From a virus: a DNA stretch of 25,094 nt. The notes below the pieces were generated by a model. The model made no database searches and was not told where the DNA came from. It saw only the letters and a list, made by a program, of their open reading frames with translations. This document shows, in pieces, positions 10,267 to 22,618 of the stretch (its first letter is position 1; every line of letters begins with the position of its first letter). Both the position numbers and the translations under genes were made by a program. The DNA lies in IMG/VR virus record IMGVR_UViG_3300009481_002897, positions 1 through 25,094 of that record. One strand, 5' to 3'.

Positions 10267-10614
10267 CTAACTGTCATTAAATAAATTCTCAATGATTTTT
10301 CCAACAACCCAATTGATAATAAAAGAAAGAAAAAGCTGACCCAGTATAGGTATTAATAACGGTAAAAAACCGCTTAGCTCCTCTTGTGACAAGTTTTCCT
10401 TAATGTATTCCTTACATTCTTTTCTAAGGGGTTCCCTCCCCCTGTCTTCAGTAAAGTTAGAATCTGTGAATCCATCACTTACTATTGTAGCCCAATCTTG
10501 GCCCAATTGCAAGCACTTTTCTGCCATTTTTCGTTCTTTTTTCTTTTTATATTTTTTCCCAATCTCTGAGTGTATCTCCCCGAAACCGCACATGATTCTG
10601 GATTCAAAATTCAT
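10267..10614 (-). CDS. Small protein with C-terminal membrane segment
   Basis: 115 residues from the ATG at 10614. The frame opens at a TTG at 10635, but the ATG follows the upstream stop by four bases and the TTG would overlap it. The N-terminal half has a very basic run (KKYKKKKERK, about 20-29). The C-terminal residues 82-108 are hydrophobic (FLPLLIPILGQLFLSFIINWVV), probably one membrane helix with a short tail. No family recognised. It is the last gene before the terminator. A tail-anchored inner-membrane protein is the simplest reading. Confidence 0.65.
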   Translation of the reverse strand: MNFESRIMCGFGEIHSEIGKKYKKKKERKMAEKCLQLGQDWATIVSDGFTDSNFTEDRGREPLRKECKEYIKENLSQEELSGFLPLLIPILGQLFLSFIINWVVGKIIENLFNDS

Positions 10615-10618
10615 ATTA

Positions 10619-10966
10619 TTACGCCCCGTGATCAAAGTGGGAATTATCTACAATAATTTTATCTGAAAACATTTCGCTGTTCTCGGAGTAGTCGAATGAA
10701 ACATCAGGAAAGCTTCCTAGTACTACGGTTCCACCTTCAGGCCCCAAAGTAATCCCTAAAACATTGATTGATATTTTGATGATCTTTTTAACTTCGACTT
10801 TAGGCTTATCTTCTCCTGTGAAATCTATATTGACCACATCGCTACTGGGTTGTGATATAGTTACTTCGAGAGGTAGCTTGGTTTTTAGTTTATACTTTCC
10901 AATCTTTAACCCATCTTTAGAGGATAGTTTCATTACAGCGTCATATGCTTGCTTTAATCTCTCCAT
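10619..10966 (-). CDS. Unknown beta-rich small protein
   Basis: 115 residues, soluble, with alternating hydrophobic/polar strands (VTISQP, VVNIDF, KIIKISINVLGITLG, GTVVLG, VSFDYS) after a basic helical N-terminus. It looks like a compact beta-sandwich. No enzyme motif or membrane segment. GGAG stands about 8 bases before the ATG. It lies within the run of small membrane proteins, whose periplasmic or membrane partner it could be. Confidence 0.65.
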   Translation of the reverse strand: MERLKQAYDAVMKLSSKDGLKIGKYKLKTKLPLEVTISQPSSDVVNIDFTGEDKPKVEVKKIIKISINVLGITLGPEGGTVVLGSFPDVSFDYSENSEMFSDKIIVDNSHFDHGA

Positions 10967-10988: not shown

Positions 10989-11441
10989 TTACTGTAAAAG
11001 AACCCAAGTTAAACCCATAAACTTTTTACTTATGGCTTTCCTTTCTTCTTCTGAGATTCTGTGATCGTCGTTTGTTGTAACGGAGGAAATTAGCTTGATT
11101 ATAGCATCCCCTAAGCCTTTATATTTCCCCGCCATCTGCTCCTTGAAGAATATTTTACCAGCAAGGGCATAAACGTCGTTTGCTTGTTGCACCGTAGAAT
11201 TATAATCCAGTACGTTTGTTGCAAATTGAAAATTGAATATAGCCATCTTTACCCTATCGTCTGTCTCGGTGATAATTTTGTCTATTTCAGAAACCTCGGA
11301 TAGTGTTATCTGGTCTGGCTTATCTACAGAAAGCACCTCGTTATCTGGCTTTGTGGGGGTGTTGGCCCAGTCAATAATCCTATCTCCCCATAGGCCACCT
11401 ATTATTAGCAAAATAGCCGCTATATTTTTTATAATTTTCAT
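10989..11441 (-). CDS. Membrane-anchored unknown protein
   Basis: 150 residues. Residues 1-18 (KIIKNIAAILLIIGGLW) form a short basic then hydrophobic N-terminus, either a signal anchor or a signal peptide without a clear cleavage site. The rest is soluble and helical, with acidic patches and a C-terminal segment (DDHRISEEERKAISKKFMG) that resembles an EF-hand-like acidic loop only superficially. It starts in the stop region of the upstream gene (ATGA overlap). Function unknown. It probably faces the periplasm. Confidence 0.65.
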   Translation of the reverse strand: MKIIKNIAAILLIIGGLWGDRIIDWANTPTKPDNEVLSVDKPDQITLSEVSEIDKIITETDDRVKMAIFNFQFATNVLDYNSTVQQANDVYALAGKIFFKEQMAGKYKGLGDAIIKLISSVTTNDDHRISEEERKAISKKFMGLTWVLLQ

Positions 11442-11761
11442 CCCAGAGTATCCCCCGTCTCGGGTGACGTGCTGATTTTTTTATGACCATCACACTTCTT
11501 GTTTAGAAGTGGAAAAACATCGTCAAGCATTTTGCAAGCCTCTTCCATTCCTGATAAGTGACAAGACTCTTTCAGGGCATGCCAATTGTTTACGACTTCC
11601 ATGAAATCGTCCCGATCTGACTTCCCAGTCTTTACTGCTGGTGGTTTTGGCTTTAAGAGGTTTTTACACCAATTGATCACTGACGATGTGCTGATGAAAT
11701 TAGAAGCCACTAATATTAACCCTAGTGATACGCAGGCTACTTGAATAATATTAAAGTCCAT
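11438..11761 (-). CDS. Small membrane-anchored protein
   Basis: 107 residues with one N-terminal hydrophobic helix (about 4-27) followed by a Pro/Lys linker (KPKPPAVK) and a soluble helical domain with three Cys (in ESCHLSG, EACKML and NKKCDG). The Cys could form disulfides if the domain is periplasmic. GGAGGT stands about 8 bases before the ATG, one of the best ribosome sites here. It forms an overlapping pair with the next membrane-anchored gene. Confidence 0.65.
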   Translation of the reverse strand: MDFNIIQVACVSLGLILVASNFISTSSVINWCKNLLKPKPPAVKTGKSDRDDFMEVVNNWHALKESCHLSGMEEACKMLDDVFPLLNKKCDGHKKISTSPETGDTLG

Positions 11762-11821: not shown

Positions 11822-11865
11822 TTCCCAGACTGGGAATTTGCGTTAGATGACCGTCAGCCTGACGG
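11822..11865. other. Two tight inverted repeats between genes
   Basis: TTCCCAG-A-CTGGGAA (11822-11836) and CCGTCAG-C-CTGACGG (11851-11865) are perfect 7-base inverted repeats with a single central base. The second overlaps the stop codon of the Cys-rich protein gene. On the minus strand neither is followed by a T run, so they are not classical terminators. They could be RNA hairpins that stabilise the 3' end or mark a processing site. The rest of this 92-base gap holds the ribosome site of the next gene. Confidence 0.4.
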
Positions 11866-12324
11866 GCCACACTCCTTTTCGTCGCTAAAAGAGGCTTCCC
11901 TTTTTACGCATCCGCACTTACCATAGGATGGAACGCAATTGCAATAAGTTCTAGACGTGTCGCATTTGCACTTGTGTTTTTTCTTGTCGTCGTCGTCGTC
12001 GTCGTCTTTATGGTACGGGCAAGGTGTCTTATGCCCATCCCCATGAACAATCCACCCCGAACCCTTGCATGGGCATTTGTTTTTGTCGGGGTTTGGCTCT
12101 GGGGTAACATCGGGGTCTGGTTCTGGATCAGGCTTGAACACTTCTGACTCAGCTTGTAGAAATGCTGATTTTGCACCCTCCTTCCAAGACTCAACTTGTG
12201 AGATTCCAGACGTGTCGATCTTCTCCTCTATAACATCAGAGTTGGGGATAGATGCTACAATCGCTCCAGCCACCACCCCACCCAGACCAATTATTATATT
12301 TCTGATCTTATCTCTTAACGCCAT
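11854..12324 (-). CDS. Cys-rich, Asp/Pro-repeat protein with N-terminal membrane segment
   Basis: 156 residues. One hydrophobic helix lies at about 10-27. A spacer follows, then an acidic Pro-rich repeat (PDPEPDPDVTPEPNPD, about 65-80). Next comes a DnaJ-like Cys cluster (CPCKGSGW and CPYH), a run of seven Asp followed by KKK, and a second Cys cluster (HKCKCD, YCNC, YGKCGC). It contains about a dozen Cys/His residues able to bind zinc or form disulfides. The Asp run could bind calcium. I recognise no full-length family. It is translationally coupled to the protease gene (TAATG) and may act with it at the envelope. Confidence 0.68.
   Translation of the reverse strand: MALRDKIRNIIIGLGGVVAGAIVASIPNSDVIEEKIDTSGISQVESWKEGAKSAFLQAESEVFKPDPEPDPDVTPEPNPDKNKCPCKGSGWIVHGDGHKTPCPYHKDDDDDDDKKKHKCKCDTSRTYCNCVPSYGKCGCVKREASFSDEKECGPSG
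11986..12006. repeat. GTC x7 trinucleotide repeat
   Basis: Seven perfect GTC copies on the plus strand encode seven consecutive Asp in the minus-strand Cys-rich protein. Such a run can change length by slippage without shifting the frame. Confidence 0.9.
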
Positions 12325-13247
12325 TAAAACACCTCATTAATGGTCCACTTGACTTGCCGTGGTGGGAATCCATCCACATCACTAAACACCCAAGATCCGT
12401 TTTGGGATAACATTTTTTCAGCATCTTTTTCTCTAACCCAAAAACTGCCGTCTGGTTGATTGTGTCTTTTGGGTCCGCTGTTCCATTTACCCCAAGAGTT
12501 TTGGATTAGAAACAATGTCTCGTTATGTATCTCTCTAGTGTCATCACAAGCAATCCATGTCATAGCGTGGTTCCACGACCCGCTTCTTTTAGCTATACCG
12601 TGCTTGTCTCTTCTGCTGGAAAATCCAACATCTGAACAAACAGACAATGCATATCCGTTAGCTAGTGCGTCTCTTGCCGCTTTTACGGTATTAACTAGAC
12701 TGATAGTTTTTACCTTGTGCTTATTGCCTTCTTGCAAGACATCTTTTGGTACGCCCCTCTTTCCCCACTTCGTACCTATAGAACTATTGTAGCTGGAAAA
12801 ATCTGCAAAGTCATACTTTTGTCTTAGGAGGATTCCACCATGCTCATTGACAAATCTAGCTGCTCTTGAGCAGGACATACCTTGACCGCTATGCCCACGC
12901 GCCCCATAAATAGCTTCTGTTGCACCCCTAGCCCTAAAGCTTTCCCTGTCTCCATTTTTAATTTCGACAGCTCTGGTTACATCTACGGCGTTCCTAGTAG
13001 AGTGAGACACGCAGTCACCTGTCGTCTGTCTCTCTGATGCCCCGAAATTGGGAACGTAATGAAAAAGACAGTGGAAGGGCAAGCTTAACTCGCCCTTACC
13101 ACTGCCATATAAGTCAAACGCCGATGTTGAGAAAAGAGGATGCTTAAGTTCCCCTAATAGTTTAGCTACGTCTTCTGGGTCGCACCAAGAACCTGCTAAT
13201 CCGCCTTTGTAAGCATTTAAAATCTCCCGAGGAGTTTTAAATAACAT
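12324..13247 (-). CDS. Papain-like (C1A family) cysteine protease
   Basis: 307 residues. The catalytic triad is visible: Cys79 in QTTGDCVSHST (Gln74 is a candidate for the oxyanion-hole residue), His227 in SWNHAMTW, and Asn250 in IQNSWGKW, in the order and approximate spacing of papain. The first 60 residues may act as a short propeptide, but there is no signal peptide. C1 peptidases are uncommon in phages. Possible jobs are processing of phage structural proteins, attack on host envelope or defence proteins, or delivery with the virion. AGAGGT precedes the ATG. The gene lies among membrane-anchored genes, upstream of the Cys-rich protein and downstream of the two-helix membrane protein. Confidence 0.85.
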   Translation of the reverse strand: MLFKTPREILNAYKGGLAGSWCDPEDVAKLLGELKHPLFSTSAFDLYGSGKGELSLPFHCLFHYVPNFGASERQTTGDCVSHSTRNAVDVTRAVEIKNGDRESFRARGATEAIYGARGHSGQGMSCSRAARFVNEHGGILLRQKYDFADFSSYNSSIGTKWGKRGVPKDVLQEGNKHKVKTISLVNTVKAARDALANGYALSVCSDVGFSSRRDKHGIAKRSGSWNHAMTWIACDDTREIHNETLFLIQNSWGKWNSGPKRHNQPDGSFWVREKDAEKMLSQNGSWVFSDVDGFPPRQVKWTINEVF

Positions 13248-13282: not shown

Positions 13283-13513
13283 TTACGCAGGAGTATCAGG
13301 AGTATCCTTAACATTATTGTTAGACCACTTTACGACTGCATCAATCAAGATAGCAAGAATAGGAACCGCTACAATACCGGAAGTCCCTAAGTCTAACCCG
13401 CCAAGATTTTGGCCTACATAAGTAAGGGCTGCTGCTATGCCTACAAGGCCAGCGTTCTTACCAAGGTTTCTAACATCGATCCAATTAAGTGAAAATGCTT
13501 TTGAGTCTGGCAT
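13283..13513 (-). CDS. Small two-helix membrane protein (holin-like)
   Basis: 76 residues from the ATG at 13513. The frame's GTG at 13522 lies inside the Shine-Dalgarno AAAGGTGG, so it is not the start. Two hydrophobic segments (about 22-36 and 43-61) are joined by a Gly-rich turn (GQNLGGLDLGTSG) and followed by a polar tail. Size, two TM helices, polar ends and position beside a membrane-PAS gene and a protease fit a class II holin, but no endolysin is recognisable in the window, so lysis function is unproven. Confidence 0.6.
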   Translation of the reverse strand: MPDSKAFSLNWIDVRNLGKNAGLVGIAAALTYVGQNLGGLDLGTSGIVAVPILAILIDAVVKWSNNNVKDTPDTPA

Positions 13514-13540
13514 AATAACCACCTTTCTAAAAAAAATAAC

Positions 13541-14134
13541 TCATACTTCGGAAAGTTCCGACACACTAACCAAAAACCCTCCTTGCTCCTTTTCGTTGAG
13601 CCTATAGGGGAACCCAAGCATCCTTACCGTCTTTGGTTTTACATCTGAAGTCCTAACCATCTTATTGAACCTTCTGTTCATTGACAGGCAGGACTGAAAT
13701 TCTTGGAAGAATTCATCTCTGTCTTCTTCATTGATATAAGTAAGCCAGTCGAAACCCTCCACGTCTGTAAGCGTGTGTTGTGTCAACTGGAAAAAAGGCT
13801 CGTTAGTCCAGACCAACCTTCCGGTGTGATCTGTCTCAAATAAAGCCGTTGTGTTGTAATGTAAAGAAGCTTTGGTTCTCTGCTCAATGACAGACTGTCT
13901 TCTCTCTATTCTTGAGCAAGTTACCCCTAGCTCACAAACGGCGTCTTTTAAGCTGTTTCCGCCGTTAGTGGTTAGTTCTTTTTTTATTTCCTCTACTGAT
14001 TCAGCTACGTTTTCATGCTTATCCATGAACGTAACCGCTGGCCTGACTACTTTCATCCATACGATACTGATAAAGGTTATTACTCCACCAGCTAATCCAA
14101 ATAGTAAGGTGTATTGCTCTGGATTATCAAACAT
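13541..14134 (-). CDS. Membrane-anchored PAS-domain protein
   Basis: 197 residues. One TM helix lies at about 8-28 and a coiled-coil-like linker at 40-90, containing NGGNSLKDAV, a segment seen in phage membrane proteins of the holin/minor tail type. A PAS fold covers about 91-193: ALFETDHTGRLVWTNEPF, then a FDWLTYINEEDRDEFFQEF helix and LGFPYRLNEKEQGGFLVSVSEL as the last strands. PAS domains bind small ligands or form dimers. There is no kinase, cyclase or DNA-binding domain after it. AAGGGG stands before the ATG. Upstream of the holin-like gene, it might sense a cue at the membrane or serve as a structural/assembly factor. Fold call good, role unknown. Confidence 0.75.
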   Translation of the reverse strand: MFDNPEQYTLLFGLAGGVITFISIVWMKVVRPAVTFMDKHENVAESVEEIKKELTTNGGNSLKDAVCELGVTCSRIERRQSVIEQRTKASLHYNTTALFETDHTGRLVWTNEPFFQLTQHTLTDVEGFDWLTYINEEDRDEFFQEFQSCLSMNRRFNKMVRTSDVKPKTVRMLGFPYRLNEKEQGGFLVSVSELSEV

Positions 14135-14239: not shown

Positions 14240-14896
14240 CTATTCGTTAGAATTTTTAGCTTTGTACTCATCGGTAGTAGGTTTACCGAGTGCACCAAAG
14301 TGATAAGTAAGCTCACCCGGAACTGCTCTTGTTGGTGTTGCTGCATCGTCTGTTGCGGCGGTTGTACCATCGTCAGCTTGTACAAAAGTCTTGGCAGTAC
14401 CAGCGTCTCCGCCTCTTGTACGACCCGGAACTCTTCCACTACTTGGGACAGCCATGATATCAAATGTACCAGCATCAATCTGCTGCGTACTGACATTTTC
14501 TTGGATGCCGTCAAAACCAACTCCGTCGTACTGACTTCCGGGGATGGTCATATTGGTTACAGCGTCATTATTAACTTTACCGGCACCAGTTGCACCCGCT
14601 CCGCGAATAATGAAGTTTGTATCGCCAGCTCTGGAGTCTGGGAAATAAGCGAGACCACCGGTGCCGCCACTCTTGGCTTTGATAACACCGTCAGGATTTG
14701 TGTAATCGTGGGCCGTGGCTGTTTTTTCAACAACCTTACTTCCGCTACGATTAACGTCTTTGCTGGGGGTAAGATCTCGTAAACCCATGACTTTGGTGAT
14801 GGGGTCGTTGGTGGTGTCTGCGTTTCCACCCTTGACTACTGTACCGCCATCATTTACCTTTGTGGTCACACTTTGGTGTGCATTTGTGGAAGCCAT
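14240..14896 (-). CDS. Glycine/threonine-rich protein, possible virion protein
   Basis: 218 residues, very rich in Gly, Ala, Thr, Asp and Asn, with almost no Cys or Trp and no signal or membrane segment. The composition resembles phage head-decoration, tail or other virion surface proteins rather than an enzyme. There are repeated short motifs of the type GGxA/AGxT (KGGNADTT, KSGGTGG, GAGATGAG, GGDAGTA). Its AAGGAG ribosome site, about 8 bases before the ATG, is near consensus, and a promoter-like TATAAT lies some 75 bases upstream, so high expression is likely. No homologous family recognised. Confidence 0.65.
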   Translation of the reverse strand: MASTNAHQSVTTKVNDGGTVVKGGNADTTNDPITKVMGLRDLTPSKDVNRSGSKVVEKTATAHDYTNPDGVIKAKSGGTGGLAYFPDSRAGDTNFIIRGAGATGAGKVNNDAVTNMTIPGSQYDGVGFDGIQENVSTQQIDAGTFDIMAVPSSGRVPGRTRGGDAGTAKTFVQADDGTTAATDDAATPTRAVPGELTYHFGALGKPTTDEYKAKNSNE

Positions 14897-14978: not shown

Positions 14979-15470
14979 TTATTTTAGTACTTTTTTGCGA
15001 AGAAGTTCTGACATTTTTTTAATTTTTCTCCTTGCAGTTTCTCTATTATACCCATGTTTCTTAGCTATTTCACTAATTGTCATACTTTTCATACGATCCA
15101 AAATGAGGTCTTTGTCTTCCATCTTATTGATCTCATCCATAAGGTCAGTCATAAGGAAGTGATCTCTATTGTCTTGAGTATTAGGGTGGAGTTTGCGATT
15201 GCAAAATTTAGTTTTCTGGTTAAATTTTACCTCTCTAATGCACTCTATCCTAACCCCATTGTAGAGGTATGTGGTGAATTTTGCAGCCTTATTTTCGTCG
15301 TGATTTGAGAATGCTTTCCATAGAGCATTAAGCTTGCAGGTCTGTATCTCATCATCGCTTAGCTGCCCAAAGAACCCACTAGCGGCTTTCGCCATTATTT
15401 TACTTATATCCTCATCACGAAAAGCTTCTTCAATTTTTTGACTCAAAGAGTCGTTTTCAACAAGTTTCAT
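14979..15470 (-). CDS. Small sigma-70-family-like factor (phage late sigma candidate)
   Basis: 163 residues. About 36-82 looks like sigma region 2 (LSDDEIQTCKLNALWKAF, KFTTYLYNGVRIECIRE), which contacts core RNA polymerase and melts the -10 box. The end (129-152, MTISEIAKKHGYNRETARRKIKKM) is an HTH like region 4, which would read -35 DNA. The size resembles the T4 gp55 class of late sigma factors, and phages with such a factor use it for structural-gene transcription. AGGAG stands before the ATG. It lies directly before the promoter candidate and the likely virion gene. A sigma/regulatory DNA-binding protein is likely; the gp55 equivalence is inference. Confidence 0.72.
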   Translation of the reverse strand: MKLVENDSLSQKIEEAFRDEDISKIMAKAASGFFGQLSDDEIQTCKLNALWKAFSNHDENKAAKFTTYLYNGVRIECIREVKFNQKTKFCNRKLHPNTQDNRDHFLMTDLMDEINKMEDKDLILDRMKSMTISEIAKKHGYNRETARRKIKKMSELLRKKVLK

Positions 15471-15950: not shown

Positions 15951-16325
15951 TTATAGCATATCGGAAGGTTTTAAGCAAGGCCTCTCTGTAGTTTTTTCAA
16001 TAGTTTTATGTTTTTTGGATAATGTCTCACCGATATGAAGTGCGAGTTTTAGCAATGTGTCACCCTGAGCGTCTTCAAGTAAGCCTGTTTTGATCATTTC
16101 TATAGTTTCTATATATAGCTGATCAGTACCAAGGGCGGCGACTAGTTTGCACAGGTCGTCTGTGGTTTTCTCCTCGTAATCTCTTAATTCCACATCCACC
16201 ATAGGTGTAGAATCATTCATGAAGAATTTTATAGAGACAGTTATATTGTCATCCTCTTCGTCCAGAGGAAATTGTTCCTCTGGTGTTTTTATCTCCGGTT
16301 TCTTTTTTTTAAAAAAATTAAACAT
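15951..16325 (-). CDS. Unknown small acidic protein
   Basis: 124 residues. It begins with MFNFFKKKKPE, a basic-aromatic tag, followed by an acidic stretch (EEDDN), a beta hairpin and a helical remainder. It overlaps the glycosyltransferase gene before it by 8 bases. No family recognised, no membrane helix. Confidence 0.62.
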   Translation of the reverse strand: MFNFFKKKKPEIKTPEEQFPLDEEDDNITVSIKFFMNDSTPMVDVELRDYEEKTTDDLCKLVAALGTDQLYIETIEMIKTGLLEDAQGDTLLKLALHIGETLSKKHKTIEKTTERPCLKPSDML

Positions 16326-17412
16326 GTCGTAAAATTAGCTCCGCAGTGTGATCCCAGTTGTACTTTTTCGCTGTCTTCACGCCGTCTTGGTTGTTTGTTA
16401 GTTTAACCTTATACTTATGTTTTAGAAAATGGACTTTTCTCATATACTTGGATATCTCTGCCACTTCCTCATCCCCAATTTTAGCCCACTGTCCAACTTT
16501 TCCGTGGAACCACTTCCCGTCATATGCCATTTCTTTGTCTTTTATCGTCACCAAAAAGGAGTTTTCTTTAGTGCAAAACTCAGTGTGAGCAGAATAATCT
16601 GTAATTATTAACCTTTTCCCGCAAGCCATCATCTCTAAAGCCTCTAGGTTCCACCCCTCTCCCCTCGATGGGAAAACCCCACAATCAGTTTTTGACATTA
16701 TATTATACACCTCCTGCTGGTTTGGAACCCTCTCGATAAGCTTTATTTTATCTCCTAGTTTTGAGTTTAGATATAGGTTCTTCCACTCATTTTCCTCAGA
16801 CTCGCTATAAAATGGATTTTCACACATCATCCACAACTCAACGTTATCCGACTCTTTGAAGGCATTGCAAAAGGCTTCTATTAGTATATCGTGTCCCTTT
16901 CTTACTTCCCATTTTCCACAATTGAAAAATATAGTATTTTCACTCTCAGAGACGTTGGTGTCGAGACTGAATATTGATTCGTCTACTCCAAGTGGAATTA
17001 CGTGGACATTCTCTCTCACCCCCATTGTTTTGTAGCGGTTATATAAGTTTGAAACTACCACCTCCTTAGCCCACTCTGAGCAAACGAAAAGCTTGTCTGG
17101 ATAGTAAAGGTGGTGATTTTCATGATCATTGAAAGCGTCAAGCTCAAAAATAGGAAAGCCTATCTTAGTTCCCCTTCCAACAAATTGCGTCATGTCGTGC
17201 TGATGCCATATCTTTATGCAGGGTGCATCAAAGTTTGGCATCTTGGCATTGGCTATGGACGAAGAGATAATATCTGCGTCTTCCTGACTTGTCACAGATG
17301 GCTGTCCTATTGGCCATAATGAAACTTCTGTCTTTTTGCTGAGAGCCTTAACTATATTAAGTCCGGTAATCCCATAGCCTAACTGGTTGATTGGTGAAAC
17401 TATGTTAATCAT
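16318..17412 (-). CDS. GT4-type glycosyltransferase
   Basis: 364 residues with a GT-B fold. The Gly-rich N-terminal loop (NQLGYGITGLNIV, 9-21) and the linker HVIPLGVDESIF (137-148) match retaining family 4. The acceptor/donor signature is FPSRGEGWNLEALEMMACGK at 247-266, with Glu257 as the conserved nucleotide-sugar-binding acid. It transfers a sugar from a nucleotide donor onto a glycan or a protein. No membrane segment, so it works in the cytoplasm on an activated acceptor. It is the last glycan gene in the cassette and overlaps its CAP59-like neighbour by 8 bases or less. Confidence 0.9.
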   Translation of the reverse strand: MINIVSPINQLGYGITGLNIVKALSKKTEVSLWPIGQPSVTSQEDADIISSSIANAKMPNFDAPCIKIWHQHDMTQFVGRGTKIGFPIFELDAFNDHENHHLYYPDKLFVCSEWAKEVVVSNLYNRYKTMGVRENVHVIPLGVDESIFSLDTNVSESENTIFFNCGKWEVRKGHDILIEAFCNAFKESDNVELWMMCENPFYSESEENEWKNLYLNSKLGDKIKLIERVPNQQEVYNIMSKTDCGVFPSRGEGWNLEALEMMACGKRLIITDYSAHTEFCTKENSFLVTIKDKEMAYDGKWFHGKVGQWAKIGDEEVAEISKYMRKVHFLKHKYKVKLTNNQDGVKTAKKYNWDHTAELILRHV

Positions 17413-18370
17413 GGCTTCTTCTGAACTCCCCTAATATTCTAGAAAATTTATGGTGTGAATAAGACGACAACATACTTGGGTTTATTATAATTTTCCAACC
17501 ATTGTTTCTCATTTGACGGTGTAGAAAGGGGTGGTCACAGTCAACTACCCCGTCTGACCATTTTTTTGACCCATAGATACATGGTAGTATGGCTTCTTTC
17601 TTATATATAGCTAGCCCACTAAAGTTTGAGTTAACCTCAACAAGATCGTCCATTCTGGAAAGGTTTATCCCGTTGAACCTCTGGACATTGACTGGTTCCT
17701 CTTCATTTAGCATCCTAAAGGCCCAGCTATCAAAAAATAGATGATTTTTAGGGTCTACATCTTCTAGATCTCTTTCATTATAATAGTCCGAGAGTTTACC
17801 GTTTGCAGATATGCACCCAATATTTGGATCTAACTCTTCAAGCATTTGAAAACTGTGGGCTATACCTTCGTATGACCAGCCACCCCTTAAGTCTAGGTCA
17901 AAAACCATTACGGTATCAAAGTTGTCTATATCCTCTAGGTTTTTAATATATTTAAGGTACTCGTTCCTGCAATTTGCAATGGCTGTGGCCCTAAAAAAGT
18001 GGTCTGTGTCCTTACCATTATCCACGAGGTCTTTGTATTCACTGTCATCCATCTTTCCTGTTATGAAGTGAAACTTGTCATTGGCTTTAGCATACTCCTC
18101 CAGTATCAACCTTGTGGTATCTTTTGAATCATTTTCGTATATAATAATCTTATAATCTTTGAAAGCAGAAGCTATCCTGTATAATCTTATTAGATTTAAT
18201 TCTATAACATTGGCGACATCTCTACAGATGCCGCATAGTATGACAGATCTATTAGAACAGGCAGATAGGCCTTTCTCTACCAGACTGGTGTATTCCTCTT
18301 GCAGGTGTTCTGGCGGTGGGAAAATATCGTCTGGGAATGTTGATACTAGGTTATAATCTATTTCTTTCAT
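17405..18370 (-). CDS. CAP59-like (GT69-type) glycosyltransferase, copy 1
   Basis: 321 residues from the ATG at 18370, which overlaps the LicD stop as ATGA. The TTG at 18373 is a frame artefact. It looks like a GT-A fold: a strand with LCGICRDV (45-52), then IIIYENDSKDTT (76-87), and the metal-binding DLDLRGGWS (158-166) as the DxD motif. Toward the end come the paralogue-conserved FDSWAFR, GLAIYKK and DCDHPFLHRQMR blocks. These resemble the Cryptococcus CAP59 mannosyltransferase family. It shares the same block order with the gene at 23931-24830. Donor and acceptor are unknown. Confidence 0.82.
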   Translation of the reverse strand: MKEIDYNLVSTFPDDIFPPPEHLQEEYTSLVEKGLSACSNRSVILCGICRDVANVIELNLIRLYRIASAFKDYKIIIYENDSKDTTRLILEEYAKANDKFHFITGKMDDSEYKDLVDNGKDTDHFFRATAIANCRNEYLKYIKNLEDIDNFDTVMVFDLDLRGGWSYEGIAHSFQMLEELDPNIGCISANGKLSDYYNERDLEDVDPKNHLFFDSWAFRMLNEEEPVNVQRFNGINLSRMDDLVEVNSNFSGLAIYKKEAILPCIYGSKKWSDGVVDCDHPFLHRQMRNNGWKIIINPSMLSSYSHHKFSRILGEFRRSHD

Positions 18371-18918
18371 CAAGATCTTAACCTCATTACTGGTTTATGG
18401 TCTACTATGCACATTGTGTACTCAGCGTTTTTTCTGAGCGGGATTCGGTAGCTGTCTCCGTATAGAAACTTGCAACAACTGTCTGGGTCTTTCGGCATTT
18501 TGAGAGAGATGCCCCCTATAGTGACGCTGCGTGGTGGCAATAGTATATCTAAAGGAACATGTAAAGTTTCGCCGTTGTGTCCCCCGAAGTTCCAATGGTC
18601 TACCGCGTGGTTGTCTTCTTTGTAGTACAAATAAAAATCTATATATGCCACAACCCCTTCTATCTCCATTTCCCCTTGCACGAACATGTCTGTATCTCTT
18701 CTGAGGCTAAACCCAAGAGAAGACAGTATCCCCGAAATTTCCGCTCTGTGTTGGGAGTTAATGTAAATATCGACATCATCGTCCATCGCTAGCAGGTTCC
18801 CCTCGCGGTGACATCCCAGCAAAGTGCCGAAGAATACACAGTACTCCATGTCTTCCAGATAGGGTGCCACCATACCTAAAGTGGTAAGGTTGTACTTTCT
18901 TTCAATTGGTATATCCAT
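18370..18918 (-). CDS. licD: LicD-family phospho(no)transferase
   Basis: 182 residues. The LicD core is clear: VFFGTLLGCHREGNLLAMDD at about 28-47, containing GTLLG (31-35) and the metal-binding DDDVD run (46-50). LicD proteins belong to the nucleotidyltransferase fold and move phosphocholine from CDP-choline onto glycans. In phosphonate gene clusters, LicD-like enzymes are proposed to transfer the phosphonate from its CMP-activated form. Here it directly follows the dehydrogenase (17-base overlap) and AGGAGG precedes its ATG, so this is the natural last step: hanging 2-hydroxyethylphosphonate, or another phosphonate, on a sugar. The protein is shorter than the common 260-residue LicD. Substrate assignment is inference from the neighbours. 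Confidence 0.85.
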   Translation of the reverse strand: MDIPIERKYNLTTLGMVAPYLEDMEYCVFFGTLLGCHREGNLLAMDDDVDIYINSQHRAEISGILSSLGFSLRRDTDMFVQGEMEIEGVVAYIDFYLYYKEDNHAVDHWNFGGHNGETLHVPLDILLPPRSVTIGGISLKMPKDPDSCCKFLYGDSYRIPLRKNAEYTMCIVDHKPVMRLRS

Positions 18919-19699
18919 TCATAACCTCCTTAAGCTTGTCTGTATCCACATACTGAGACGTATTGTGGAACTTCTTATATCCTTTTGCCAGCTCAATAAC
19001 GCTATCTATGTCGTAACTATAATTGTAGTTTGGTTCTTCAATCAATTCTGCTATATCCGATTCACCCATCAGCACGCAAACAGGCTTGAGGAAAATCCCC
19101 AGTGCTGCCCCATGCGGTATACCGTAAACACCTGTCATGGGGTAGGAGAGGGCATGAAGTATAGTTGTTGGAACTTTCTCTATGATATGCCCGGCGATGT
19201 GCCCCGACTTCATCACACTCATCCTGTCCACACCAGCCTTTAGTAATACCTCTAAAGTTCCTGTGGCCAAGGTTCTTATTCCATCCGTACAATCTTTAGA
19301 CCACATAGAGTCTAAGCAGTGACTTATTGCGTCATATTTAGTTCTTTGGTATATATCTTCTGGCAGGGAGTTTATAAAATCTTCTTCCCACATTACACTT
19401 TCTGGGGGAGATCTGTAGCAGTTGCATTTTGCTTCGTTCTCCCAGTACACCGAGTGTGACGTAGCAGACGCTCCAGACGCAGTTGTTGGCCAGCAGTGAA
19501 CCGTATTGCCAACCATCTTAGCGGTATCTATCACGGCTCCTCCGCCTATAGCGGCCACGATGTCATATTTACCCAAGTCAAGAAGCGTGTTATGTGTGGG
19601 TGGAGAGTCTATGCACACCAAGTCGCCAAAGCGTTCACCGTACTTAGAAATAAAGAGACTTCTAGTAGACTTAGAGCATATCAGAGCGTCATACTTCAT
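18902..19699 (-). CDS. Compact iron-containing alcohol dehydrogenase, probable phosphonoacetaldehyde reductase
   Basis: 265 residues. It has the group III (Fe) ADH signatures: GGGAVIDTAKM at 52-62 (nucleotide binding), PTTASGASAT at 71-80, DAISHCLD at 123-130, and LHALSYPMTGVYGIPHGAAL at 181-200. The four metal ligands are present at the family spacing: Asp123, His127 (plus 4), His182 and His196 (plus 14). Usual members have 370-400 residues, so both the N-terminal part and the C-terminal helical domain are short, but the frame is intact. It starts in the stop region of the decarboxylase beta gene. In phosphonate operons Fe-ADHs such as PhpC reduce phosphonoacetaldehyde to 2-hydroxyethylphosphonate, which fits here since no AEP transaminase is seen. 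Activity of so short a form is untested. Confidence 0.83.
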   Translation of the reverse strand: MKYDALICSKSTRSLFISKYGERFGDLVCIDSPPTHNTLLDLGKYDIVAAIGGGAVIDTAKMVGNTVHCWPTTASGASATSHSVYWENEAKCNCYRSPPESVMWEEDFINSLPEDIYQRTKYDAISHCLDSMWSKDCTDGIRTLATGTLEVLLKAGVDRMSVMKSGHIAGHIIEKVPTTILHALSYPMTGVYGIPHGAALGIFLKPVCVLMGESDIAELIEEPNYNYSYDIDSVIELAKGYKKFHNTSQYVDTDKLKEVMNGYTN

Positions 19700-20157
19700 G
19701 TTAAAAATTCCTTGATACTGGTCGTATTATCCACACAATCAACCCCAACCCTATCCGTCTTCCCATCACTACTTATTTTTATTATCTCATTAACTCCGAC
19801 ATAAATATCCTCCAGAGGAGAGCATTCATATCCCCCAACGGATTCATGACATCCATTGTCTAGTATATATACATAAAGATTTGCAGGACAGAGGTCTCTA
19901 ATTGTGTGTGTTATTCCAAGATGCATGAGTATGGCCGCATCCCCACTAAACACCACAACGTCCCTGCTGGTGTTAAGAGCCAAGCCTAATCCAATACATG
20001 GGGATAGACCCATACTGCCCTGCATGTAGAATATGTTTTTGTTATCTGGGTACTCGTTATATACAGCTCTTGATATATACCCCGTACTAGTCACGTATGC
20101 AGCGTCTTCCCCATGCCTTTCAAAAACCGTTCTTATAGCGTTCTTCCTACTTAACAT
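19696..20157 (-). CDS. ppd: Phosphonopyruvate decarboxylase, ThDP-binding (beta) subunit
   Basis: 153 residues. This is the C-terminal half of a thiamine diphosphate decarboxylase. GDAAIL at 72-77 stands where the ThDP/Mg motif GDG begins, and LDNGCHESVGG at 99-109 supplies the Asn ligand (Asn101) that ends it. YMQGSMGLSPCIGLGLAL (44-61) matches the family turn before it. GDA instead of GDG is a mild variant. The HESVGG segment is typical of phosphonopyruvate and sulfopyruvate decarboxylases. Together with the alpha gene (11-base overlap) it would turn phosphonopyruvate into phosphonoacetaldehyde, pulling the unfavourable mutase step forward. Ppd is often one chain; here it is split as in ComD/ComE. 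Confidence 0.85.
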   Translation of the reverse strand: MLSRKNAIRTVFERHGEDAAYVTSTGYISRAVYNEYPDNKNIFYMQGSMGLSPCIGLGLALNTSRDVVVFSGDAAILMHLGITHTIRDLCPANLYVYILDNGCHESVGGYECSPLEDIYVGVNEIIKISSDGKTDRVGVDCVDNTTSIKEFLT

Positions 20158-20536
20158 TGTTTGAGCCTTTTACTATTATGTAGCGGGAGTAGCCAATTAC
20201 CTGAAGAAGCTCTTCGTCAACCTCGCCCATAATCTTATGCTGTGGTAAGGTATGTCTATGACCTATAACGAGAAGTGGTGTAATCTTGTGAGGGATGCAT
20301 AGGCTAGTAATCGGGTTTATAATATTCCCCAAGCCAGAATTTTGTAGGTAAACACAGGCTTTGCTACCCGCCAGCTCAGCCCCTACTGCAATACCCACAG
20401 CTTGACCCTCGTTGGTGGCTATGACATGTTGGTATCCAGACCGGATAACTTCATCCTGAAACTCTTTAAGGGCACTGTCGGGAACTCCGGTGAAAAAGTC
20501 GCACCCCATATCAATAGCATCCTGAAAGACCGACAT
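20147..20536 (-). CDS. ppd: Phosphonopyruvate decarboxylase, pyrimidine-binding (alpha) subunit
   Basis: 129 residues from the ATG at 20536, which overlaps the mutase stop as TAATG and has GGAGGGG just upstream. The frame extends to 20584 but that start lies inside the mutase gene. It is the N-terminal half of a ThDP decarboxylase: FFTGVPDSALKEF at 14-26, the conserved activating Glu43 in ATNEGQAVGIAVG, and LQNSGLGNIINP at 64-75. It would pair with the downstream beta subunit to make the active site at the interface. The alternative substrate sulfopyruvate is less likely because a PEP mutase gene precedes it. Confidence 0.87.
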   Translation of the reverse strand: MSVFQDAIDMGCDFFTGVPDSALKEFQDEVIRSGYQHVIATNEGQAVGIAVGAELAGSKACVYLQNSGLGNIINPITSLCIPHKITPLLVIGHRHTLPQHKIMGEVDEELLQVIGYSRYIIVKGSNNVK

Positions 20537-21819
20537 TAATTCCCCTCCGGTATCAGTTCTATAATGTCTTTTATGGGCATGCAATATTGCTCAGACGCAA
20601 GCCACGCAGAGCCATCCCGTAGTATCTGCTCGGCTGTTTTCACCATGGCAGGGTATGCGCTACGCATCAGGTGGTTAGCGTATATAACTAACCCTACACC
20701 ACGGTCAGACAGTTCTTTCTCAGTTACTTGACAATACGTAGAGGGAACTACCACCAAGGGAACTTTGCTATCAAGAGTCTGATACGCATCACAGAACTCT
20801 AATATCTCATCTGGACAGGATTCCTTGCTGTGAATCATTATCCCGTCAACTCCAGAGTCAATGTAAGCCTTTGCCCTTTCTAACGCATCGTTCATCCCCG
20901 CCTTTAATATCAAGCTTTCTATCCTAGCTATAATCATGAAGTCTTCGCCAACCTGAGACATCTTCCCCGCTGATATTTTTTTGCAAAACCCAGAGATTGA
21001 ATCCTGCGTCTGGGGAACGTCAGTACCAAATAAAGAATTCTTCTTGAGTCCCACTTTGTCTTCTATGATTATCGCAGAAACTCCGAGTCTCTCCAGAGTC
21101 TTGACAGTGAAAACAAAATGCTCCACCTTACCCCCCGTGTCCCCGTCGAGTATGATGGGCTTAGTGGTGACTTCAAGCACATCATTAAGAGTTCCGTATC
21201 TGTTGACCAACTCTATGTCTGGCTTTCCTTTTGCTGTTGAATCAGTAAGGCTGGACAGCCATATGGCATCAAACTCTCTGTTGTTTGCGGAAGCGTGTTC
21301 TACGATGAGTCCCGTAATCCCATTATGCGCTTCCATAACCCTAACAATGTCTTTGCAATCTAGCAACCTTCTGAGTTTCCTTTGCCTCATCTCTGGAGTT
21401 GTTCCCAAATCCTTAAGGTGGGTGTGAAGCTTGGTTGAAGACATCCCCTCAGTGTATGGTATCTCCACTAACATCCCACCCCAAGCCTTCAAAACAGACA
21501 ACACCTGTTCTCTTGTTTCTTGCTGAACGCCTGTCTTCCAGTCGTCTCCGTGTACTACAACTTCAGGTCTTACTTTTTCTAGGTTGTCTGTATAGTCCAG
21601 CGTGTGCTGAGCCATTACTGATGACACCCCTTTGATGCTCTCCACAACAGCCTTTCTCTGATCGTATGTCAAGGCGGGTAGCCTTTTGTAGCTAGCGATT
21701 GCTTCATCAGTTAGTAGACCGACAACCACCTTTCCGTATCCTGCCGCCGCGTTAATAAGATTGATGTGCCCGTGATGTATCAAGTCGGCACTCATTCCTA
21801 CGTATACTGTATTCATCAT
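20536..21819 (-). CDS. pepM: Fused cytidylyltransferase - phosphoenolpyruvate phosphomutase (PepM)
   Basis: 427 residues from the ATG at 21819; the ATG at 21816 is equally possible, and the frame's upstream part lies inside the sulfotransferase. Domain 1 (1-135) is a cytidylyltransferase: HHGH at 15-18, [11 protein letters not shown] at 45-55 and MSSTK at 126-130 (the ISSTxI site). Domain 2 (about 145-427) is an isocitrate-lyase-superfamily TIM barrel with LDGDTGG at 224-230 and [10 protein letters not shown] at 253-262, which fits the EDKxxxxxNS motif that marks PEP mutase against other superfamily members. PepM converts PEP to phosphonopyruvate, the entry to nearly all C-P biosynthesis. The N-domain likely makes the CMP-phosphonate for the LicD enzyme. 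It starts three bases or so from the sulfotransferase stop. Confidence 0.93.
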
Positions 21820-21820
21820 T

Positions 21821-22618
21821 TTATCCCACAAATATTGTATCATACTCTTCTTTTAGTTTCAAGAACTCTTTGTAGTTTGGTATCTTTTCTAGGTTCTTTG
21901 AGGTGTTAAGCTTCTTGTTCTCTAGATAATGATATTTCACCCAAGTGTAGTCTAGATCAGAAAAACTTATGCCTATAAATTCGCATAAGTCACTTATTAG
22001 TGCTAACTTTTTAGTTAGGCTATCCGTAAAGTTTTCTTCATACCTTAGATATTTAACTTCGGGCTTATAAAGCCGCACCCAAAACTTGCATTGGTCAATT
22101 TTGGAGTACCAGACATCTGCCACGCTAAGTATTTTTTGTAGGTCAATAGGCTGGTATTTAGCATTGTCTACTTTTGACTTGCCCTCCTTAGACCACTGAA
22201 TAACGCCTGTAATATCTGTTAACTGATCTGATATAGAACAGTCCAGTAGCGATTTTCTACTCTGAAAAATTATCTTTATGTTGTTGCGAACTGCATACTC
22301 TATAATCATCCTGTTGAGAAAAGCAGCGGAGCTTGTTATTATATGCTTGATGCCGGTGAAATTAGAGTACAAAGCGTCTAAAAAATCAAAGGCATCTTTG
22401 CAGTTTTTGGGCCATACGCTTTCGTGATAATAATTACCTAGCAAGCCTCTGGTTCTTTTGTCTTGCTCATTCTTTAGTGTGCTGTAATGATCTCTGTCTC
22501 CAGAAGTAAATAAAAATGGCTCTTGAACAATCTTTTCGCTAAGGATACCATTACCTAGACATGCAGACAGATTTGATGTACCGCTCCTCGCAACCCCTAG
22601 TATTATGAATTTATTCAT
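21821..22618 (-). CDS. PAPS-dependent sulfotransferase-like protein
   Basis: 265 residues. The N-terminus [18 protein letters not shown] (4-21) is the 5'-phosphosulfate-binding loop (Arg11-Ser-Gly-Thr). [15 protein letters not shown] at 116-130 supplies the 3'-phosphate site (Arg121 and Ser128 or Ser130). Such enzymes move sulfate from PAPS onto hydroxyls of sugars or other small acceptors. The gene sits between a glycosyltransferase-like gene and pepM, with 8-base overlap upstream. GGAGAGG lies before its ATG. This suggests a sulfated glycan, though a different acceptor, for example phosphonate or protein, is possible. It is a cytoplasmic form without a Golgi-type anchor, as expected in a phage. 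PAPS would have to come from the host. Confidence 0.82.

Follow-up and report, generated by a model that had tools for sequence, protein, structure and literature searches.

Enzymes with a papain fold are already known from phages, mainly as CHAP and NlpC/P60 lysins that cut peptidoglycan (PMC10318531). Phage proteins annotated as C1 proteases have also been recorded without an assigned role, namely the “Peptidase C1A” proteins of uncultured Caudovirales in BFVD, which share a papain fold and a phage origin with the protein described here at 12-18% identity. Furthermore, the PeiW and PeiP proteins of methanogen phages (MEROPS C71) are pseudomurein endoisopeptidases, and they provide a precedent for viral cysteine peptidases that open a non-murein wall (PMC4592898, PMC2989375).

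The protease described here resembles the CHAP, NlpC/P60 and Amidase_5 endolysins, which are lysis enzymes, in its papain-like fold (PMC10318531); those enzymes cut peptidoglycan, whereas the present family shows the Asn-Ser-Trp-Gly arrangement of C1 proteases and matches these rather than the endolysins. With family C1 and xylellain it has in common the full fold, the Gln-Cys-His-Asn set, the NSWG motif and an alignment of residues 6-48 with the propeptide region, and it differs from them in its identity of about 16%, the lack of a signal peptide in its own clade and the phage operon context. Five residues lead from the oxyanion Gln to the Cys, compared with six in papain. PeiW and PeiP belong to another peptidase family, have archaeal hosts, carry wall-binding repeats and lack a membrane module like the one found here. 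We found no earlier description of bacterial phages that combine a C1 protease and a recurrent membrane partner and in which no common hydrolase was detected.

A C1 protease family in uncultured phages

We analysed a stretch of 25,094 bases, the IMG/VR virus record IMGVR_UViG_3300009481_002897 of an uncultured aquatic phage, which we refer to as the window. Its other genes are phage-like and include those for a DnaB-type helicase, UvsX, PhoH, a dUTPase, a ribonucleotide reductase, a sigma factor and a glycosyltransferase. A preliminary description, made from the letters of the window, had reported an open reading frame with a full C1 triad; we found the frame with exactly these limits (Table 1) and Cys79, His227 and Asn250 in their places, and we add the strand, which is minus, the plus strand of the same stretch being full of stops.

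Searched as a single sequence, the window protein has no match in Pfam, PHROGs, NCBIfam or the sequences of the PDB, and its papain identity is seen only via its relatives and its fold. Pfam Peptidase_C1 (PF00112) matches 13 of 36 family members, with a best E value of 2.3e-5 and the window member itself without a match. Gln74, Cys79, His227 and Asn250 are invariant in 84 of 84 close relatives, a count that includes the window and its own copies, and Q74, G77, C79, H227 and N250-S-W-G are invariant in all 48 members of an alignment that reaches down to 26% identity. A loose version of the active-site motif arose 70 times in 200,000 shuffles of the window protein; the conservation, the Peptidase_C1 matches of the relatives and the fold together exclude a chance origin of the motif.

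An initial structure model, built on 7 near-identical sequences, was of low quality (pLDDT 47.6) with a weak fold search, and it was replaced by a model from the 48-member alignment (pLDDT 87.5, pTM 0.88). The central helix of this model (residues 79-97) begins at the catalytic Cys79, as the papain fold demands. Using Foldseek and VIA-align 2, we found that the nearest solved structure is xylellain (PDB 3ois; Z 21.5, 235 residues aligned), that papain aligns with Z 17.8 over 196 residues and that C1 structures overall give Z 17.8-21.5, the full-length C1 proteases being aligned over 196-249 residues. Residues 6-48 of the model superpose on the proregion of C1 zymogens, and from this match a self-inhibited protease precursor is plausible. 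We regard the identity of the window protein as a papain-like (C1-type) cysteine protease, which the preliminary description had proposed, as settled by the conserved active site, the matches of its relatives and the modelled fold, its activity being predicted.

Of the IMG/VR stretches with close relatives, 158 were confirmed, and we retained 80 loci; contigs of 94-167 kb are among those that carry the gene. Phage contigs whose gene order resembles that of the window bear a second clade (L106, L110, L112, L117 and L118; about 41% identity), and L119, L122 and L123 represent a further, more distant viral lineage that carries the protease. The window-family profile also detects a protease (PLIM_RS21800; 6.8e-16) on the 37-kb Planctopirus limnophila plasmid pPLIM01, which bears phage structural genes for terminase, portal, capsid and tail. 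Among the isolated phages of INPHARED, the window, L106 and L119 proteases have no detectable relative, and the pPLIM01 protease has two weak partial matches only, both in Microbacterium phages (E 0.2 and 0.6). A comparison of a 166-kb relative with T4 gave a clear match for rIIA and weak ones for gp41 and gp1, so that a T4-like virion is not supported.

Outside of viral sequences, two Mucilaginibacter genomes carry a lone chromosomal protease gene at 35% identity, with no obvious phage genes or lysis context around it, and the gene was not found in the rest of the 395 genomes searched from the Mucilaginibacter phylum. Both copies are intact (L088 9992-10918, L089 9962-10876) and lie downstream of the same deacetylase gene in the two species. 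In a 25-row tree the Mucilaginibacter pair joins the second phage clade (94/93), and the pPLIM01 branch is too long for placement.

Membrane proteins and other neighbours of the protease gene

Table 1. Positions of the protease gene, its neighbours and the nearby sugar and phosphonate genes in the window
Feature	Position	Strand	Basis or occurrence
Two overlapping ORFs (10267-10635, with C-terminal TM, and 10619-10966)	10267-10966	-	Single protein in relatives; possible split or frameshift
Y: N-terminal TM and ~120-aa domain	10989-11441	-	68 of 82 loci
X: N-terminal TM and ~60-aa helical-looking tail	11438-11761	-	68 of 82 loci
Z: membrane-anchored, Pro/Asp-rich, Cys-rich, motif CxCxGSGW..GDGHKTPC	11854-12324	-	74 of 82 relatives' loci
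Papain-like (C1-type) cysteine protease, 307 aa	12324-13247	-	Gln74, Cys79, His227, Asn250-Ser-Trp-Gly; relatives and fold
Small holin-like membrane protein, 79 aa, directly upstream of protease	13283-13522	-	45 of 82 loci
N-terminal TM and PAS domain protein	13541-14134	-	Domain match, hydropathy
Gly/Thr/Asp-rich protein beside the module; possibly a virion surface protein	14240-14896	-	Neighbourhood conservation
Sigma factor	14979-15470	-	Upstream of protease, past the TM-PAS gene
Sugar-transferase genes	16318-18373	-	Adjoin phosphonate genes
Glycosyltransferase	16318-17412		Counterpart in most relatives' loci
LicD-like ORF	18370-18918	-	By eye; adjoins phosphonate genes
Apparent phosphonate biosynthesis cluster	18902-21843	-	Matches given in the text
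Phosphonopyruvate decarboxylase, one piece	19696-20157		By eye
Phosphonopyruvate decarboxylase, other piece	20147-20584		Alpha subunit match, 2.3e-9

The small membrane proteins that the preliminary description had seen around the protease are borne out by a hydropathy scan of the neighbours. X, Y and Z are retained in 68-74 of 82 loci and form a tightly packed gene run with the protease: in the window, Z overlaps the protease stop by 1 base, and X and Y overlap by 4 bases. Some relatives of Z are lipoprotein-like, and in L084 and L086 a single protein matches both the Y and the Z profile. The holin-like protein is also present in the L106/L110/L112/L117 lineage, and a sigma factor adjoins the protease in L119 and L122 too.

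Y accompanies the protease in three divergent lineages. In profile comparisons with hhalign, the membrane protein encoded immediately upstream of the protease is related to Y both in the L119 lineage (E 2e-5) and in L117/L118/L106 (E 3.6e-6), against a baseline of 0.0025 or worse for unrelated pairs. Profile comparison gave similarity below significance for X with small TM proteins from other lineages, and no significant homology for the 370-aa protein of pPLIM01 with Y or for the holin-like region of pPLIM01.

The absence of a signal peptide noted in the preliminary description holds for the clade of the window, where the hydropathy scan found no TM segment in 72 sequences, and fails for distant members: the proteases of pPLIM01, L119, L122, L123 and L125 have an N-terminal TM segment. 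Different features may serve in export, the holin-like neighbour in the window clade and the TM anchor of the proteases of L119 and pPLIM01.

Between the protease and Z, freshwater relatives have a variable block of large Mtd_N proteins, which are tail-fibre-like and some of which have RCC1 and lectin domains. This adhesin insert is missing from the window and most marine relatives, in which Z comes directly after the protease. Proteins with a GDSG motif also lie between the two genes in the freshwater relatives L004, L028, L030 and L093 (14414-15664); a trypsin-like nature of two of them found no confirmation against PDB sequences. The ORFs of the 166-kb relative include one Pfam Trypsin match (5.2e-16), and the papain gene of this relative is located among replication-side genes, on the strand opposite to the large ORFs taken to be structural. 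Two relatives have a giant single ORF on the minus strand, 3737 and 4075 aa long (L096-L097 and L103-L104; G001:81626-92839, G010:63485-75712).

Further along the window, sugar-transferase genes and a LicD-like ORF adjoin an apparent phage phosphonate biosynthesis cluster (Table 1). The cluster encodes a cytidylyltransferase fused to a phosphoenolpyruvate mutase (PDB matches 1.6e-57 and 1.5e-42), a phosphonopyruvate decarboxylase divided into two pieces and an alcohol dehydrogenase of the iron type (8.6e-12), and its product is likely a phosphonate for surface decoration.

Peptidoglycan hydrolases and candidate hosts

Six-frame searches of 14 viral contigs (51-167 kb) and pPLIM01 gave no match to CHAP, GH24, Amidase_2, M15_3, M23, SLT, NlpC/P60 or VanY, while bacterial control sequences gave matches; contigs of this kind may be incomplete, and divergent or rarer families could escape these eight profiles. 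Furthermore, no hydrolase domain in Pfam was found in 38 scanned pPLIM01 proteins, and none is among the matches listed for the 108 ORFs of the 166-kb relative (25 of 50 Pfam families). Among the window protein and its relatives, Peptidase_C1 is the sole Pfam match, and no known peptidoglycan-hydrolase domain was seen. Because detectable lytic proteins are encoded by 97.4% of dsDNA phages (PMC12596118), the absence of detected hydrolases is unusual, though it is no proof.

Two relatives of the protease are on contigs inside one SAR202 MAG, from which GT51 is absent; GT51 is present in four Bacteroidota assemblies. Peptidoglycan synthesis has been reported as lost in marine Dehalococcoidia (PMC10284905), and planctomycetes possess peptidoglycan (PMC4432640). 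The SAR202, Lokiarchaeota and Flavobacteriales matches are all contigs within MAGs, a membership that is weak as host evidence. The GC content of the phage contigs fits the SAR202 bin, tetranucleotide correlations fail to separate hosts, and assignment by composition picked out no single host. A protein-walled host such as SAR202 is possible but weakly supported.

Possible roles of the protease

The preliminary description had left a choice between attack on the envelope, virion maturation and host takeover. Envelope attack has the most support, because of the conserved membrane partner Y, the signal-anchored homologues and the lack of a match to the eight hydrolase families, and maturation in the sense of capsid processing is disfavoured. 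We tentatively favour an envelope-directed protease that serves lysis in place of a canonical endolysin, a role that the protein may well have and that we stop short of calling probable.

Under this hypothesis, the protease would be expressed alongside small membrane proteins and directed at the host envelope, with Y and Z as its putative membrane partners. In the window phages, the signal-less protease would be let out by the neighbouring holin-like protein, and in small planctomycete-type phages it would use its own N-terminal membrane anchor, which is seen by hydropathy. Outside the membrane it may cut an envelope protein (S-layer, protein sacculus or protein-peptidoglycan links) and so do the job of an endolysin. 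More speculatively, the lack of common peptidoglycan hydrolases would follow if the host, for example one of the SAR202 Chloroflexota, had no peptidoglycan. Some observations speak against a function in lysis: the lone Mucilaginibacter copies are kept without a lysis context, planctomycetes do have peptidoglycan, and tail-fibre-like genes adjoin the protease in freshwater relatives, which allows a role in the virion.

Such a virion-associated or assembly protease would trim or release tail-fibre or adhesin proteins, or travel with the particle and breach the cell surface during entry, and we consider this rather doubtful. The large proteins of Mtd_N, RCC1 or lectin-like type and those with a GDSG motif that lie directly downstream of the protease in many freshwater relatives argue for it, as does the surface-protein-like product of the Gly/Thr/Asp-rich gene; however, the window and most marine relatives do without the adhesin insert, and the signal-anchored homologues point to the host membrane. 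Furthermore, pPLIM01 has a ClpP-type protease annotated for head maturation, and the 166-kb relative also encodes a Clp protease; because this function is already provided for, a prohead protease role of the papain-like protein in capsid maturation is unlikely.

Phage genes that adjoin membrane-protein genes often modify the host, and the protease could act on cytoplasmic host proteins or at the inner membrane in host takeover, counter-defence or superinfection exclusion. The window clade without a signal is consistent with an intracellular enzyme, and the lone Mucilaginibacter copy indicates that a cell can keep this enzyme without a phage, but other lineages have anchored homologues and Y recurs as a membrane partner, and we consider such a role unlikely. 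That the protein is an ordinary endolysin in unfamiliar sequence, a papain-fold peptidoglycan peptidase working in the manner of CHAP or NlpC/P60, would fit the fold it has in common with these lysins (PMC10318531), a weak fold match of the model to one mycobacteriophage Lysin A and the peptidoglycan of planctomycetes, but is highly improbable for a model that matches full-length C1 proteases over 196-249 residues and a Gln, Cys, His, Asn-Ser-Trp-Gly set that is a protease signature.

Returning to the envelope protease, phage lysis of bacteria without peptidoglycan is an open question, and our literature search found no paper on a phage protease that lyses such bacteria. The family described here offers a concrete, testable candidate: it occurs on numerous contigs of uncultured viruses (158 confirmed stretches, with several contigs above 100 kb) and previously had no function attached to it, and the host of pPLIM01, Planctopirus limnophila, is culturable and has genetic tools. 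We consider it unlikely, though worth stating, that protein-walled hosts, such as SAR202 and related Chloroflexota, have led a widespread class of bacterial phages to lyse by a papain-type protease in place of a peptidoglycan hydrolase. If this were true, the protease and Y would together constitute a transferable lysis cassette for protein-walled bacteria.
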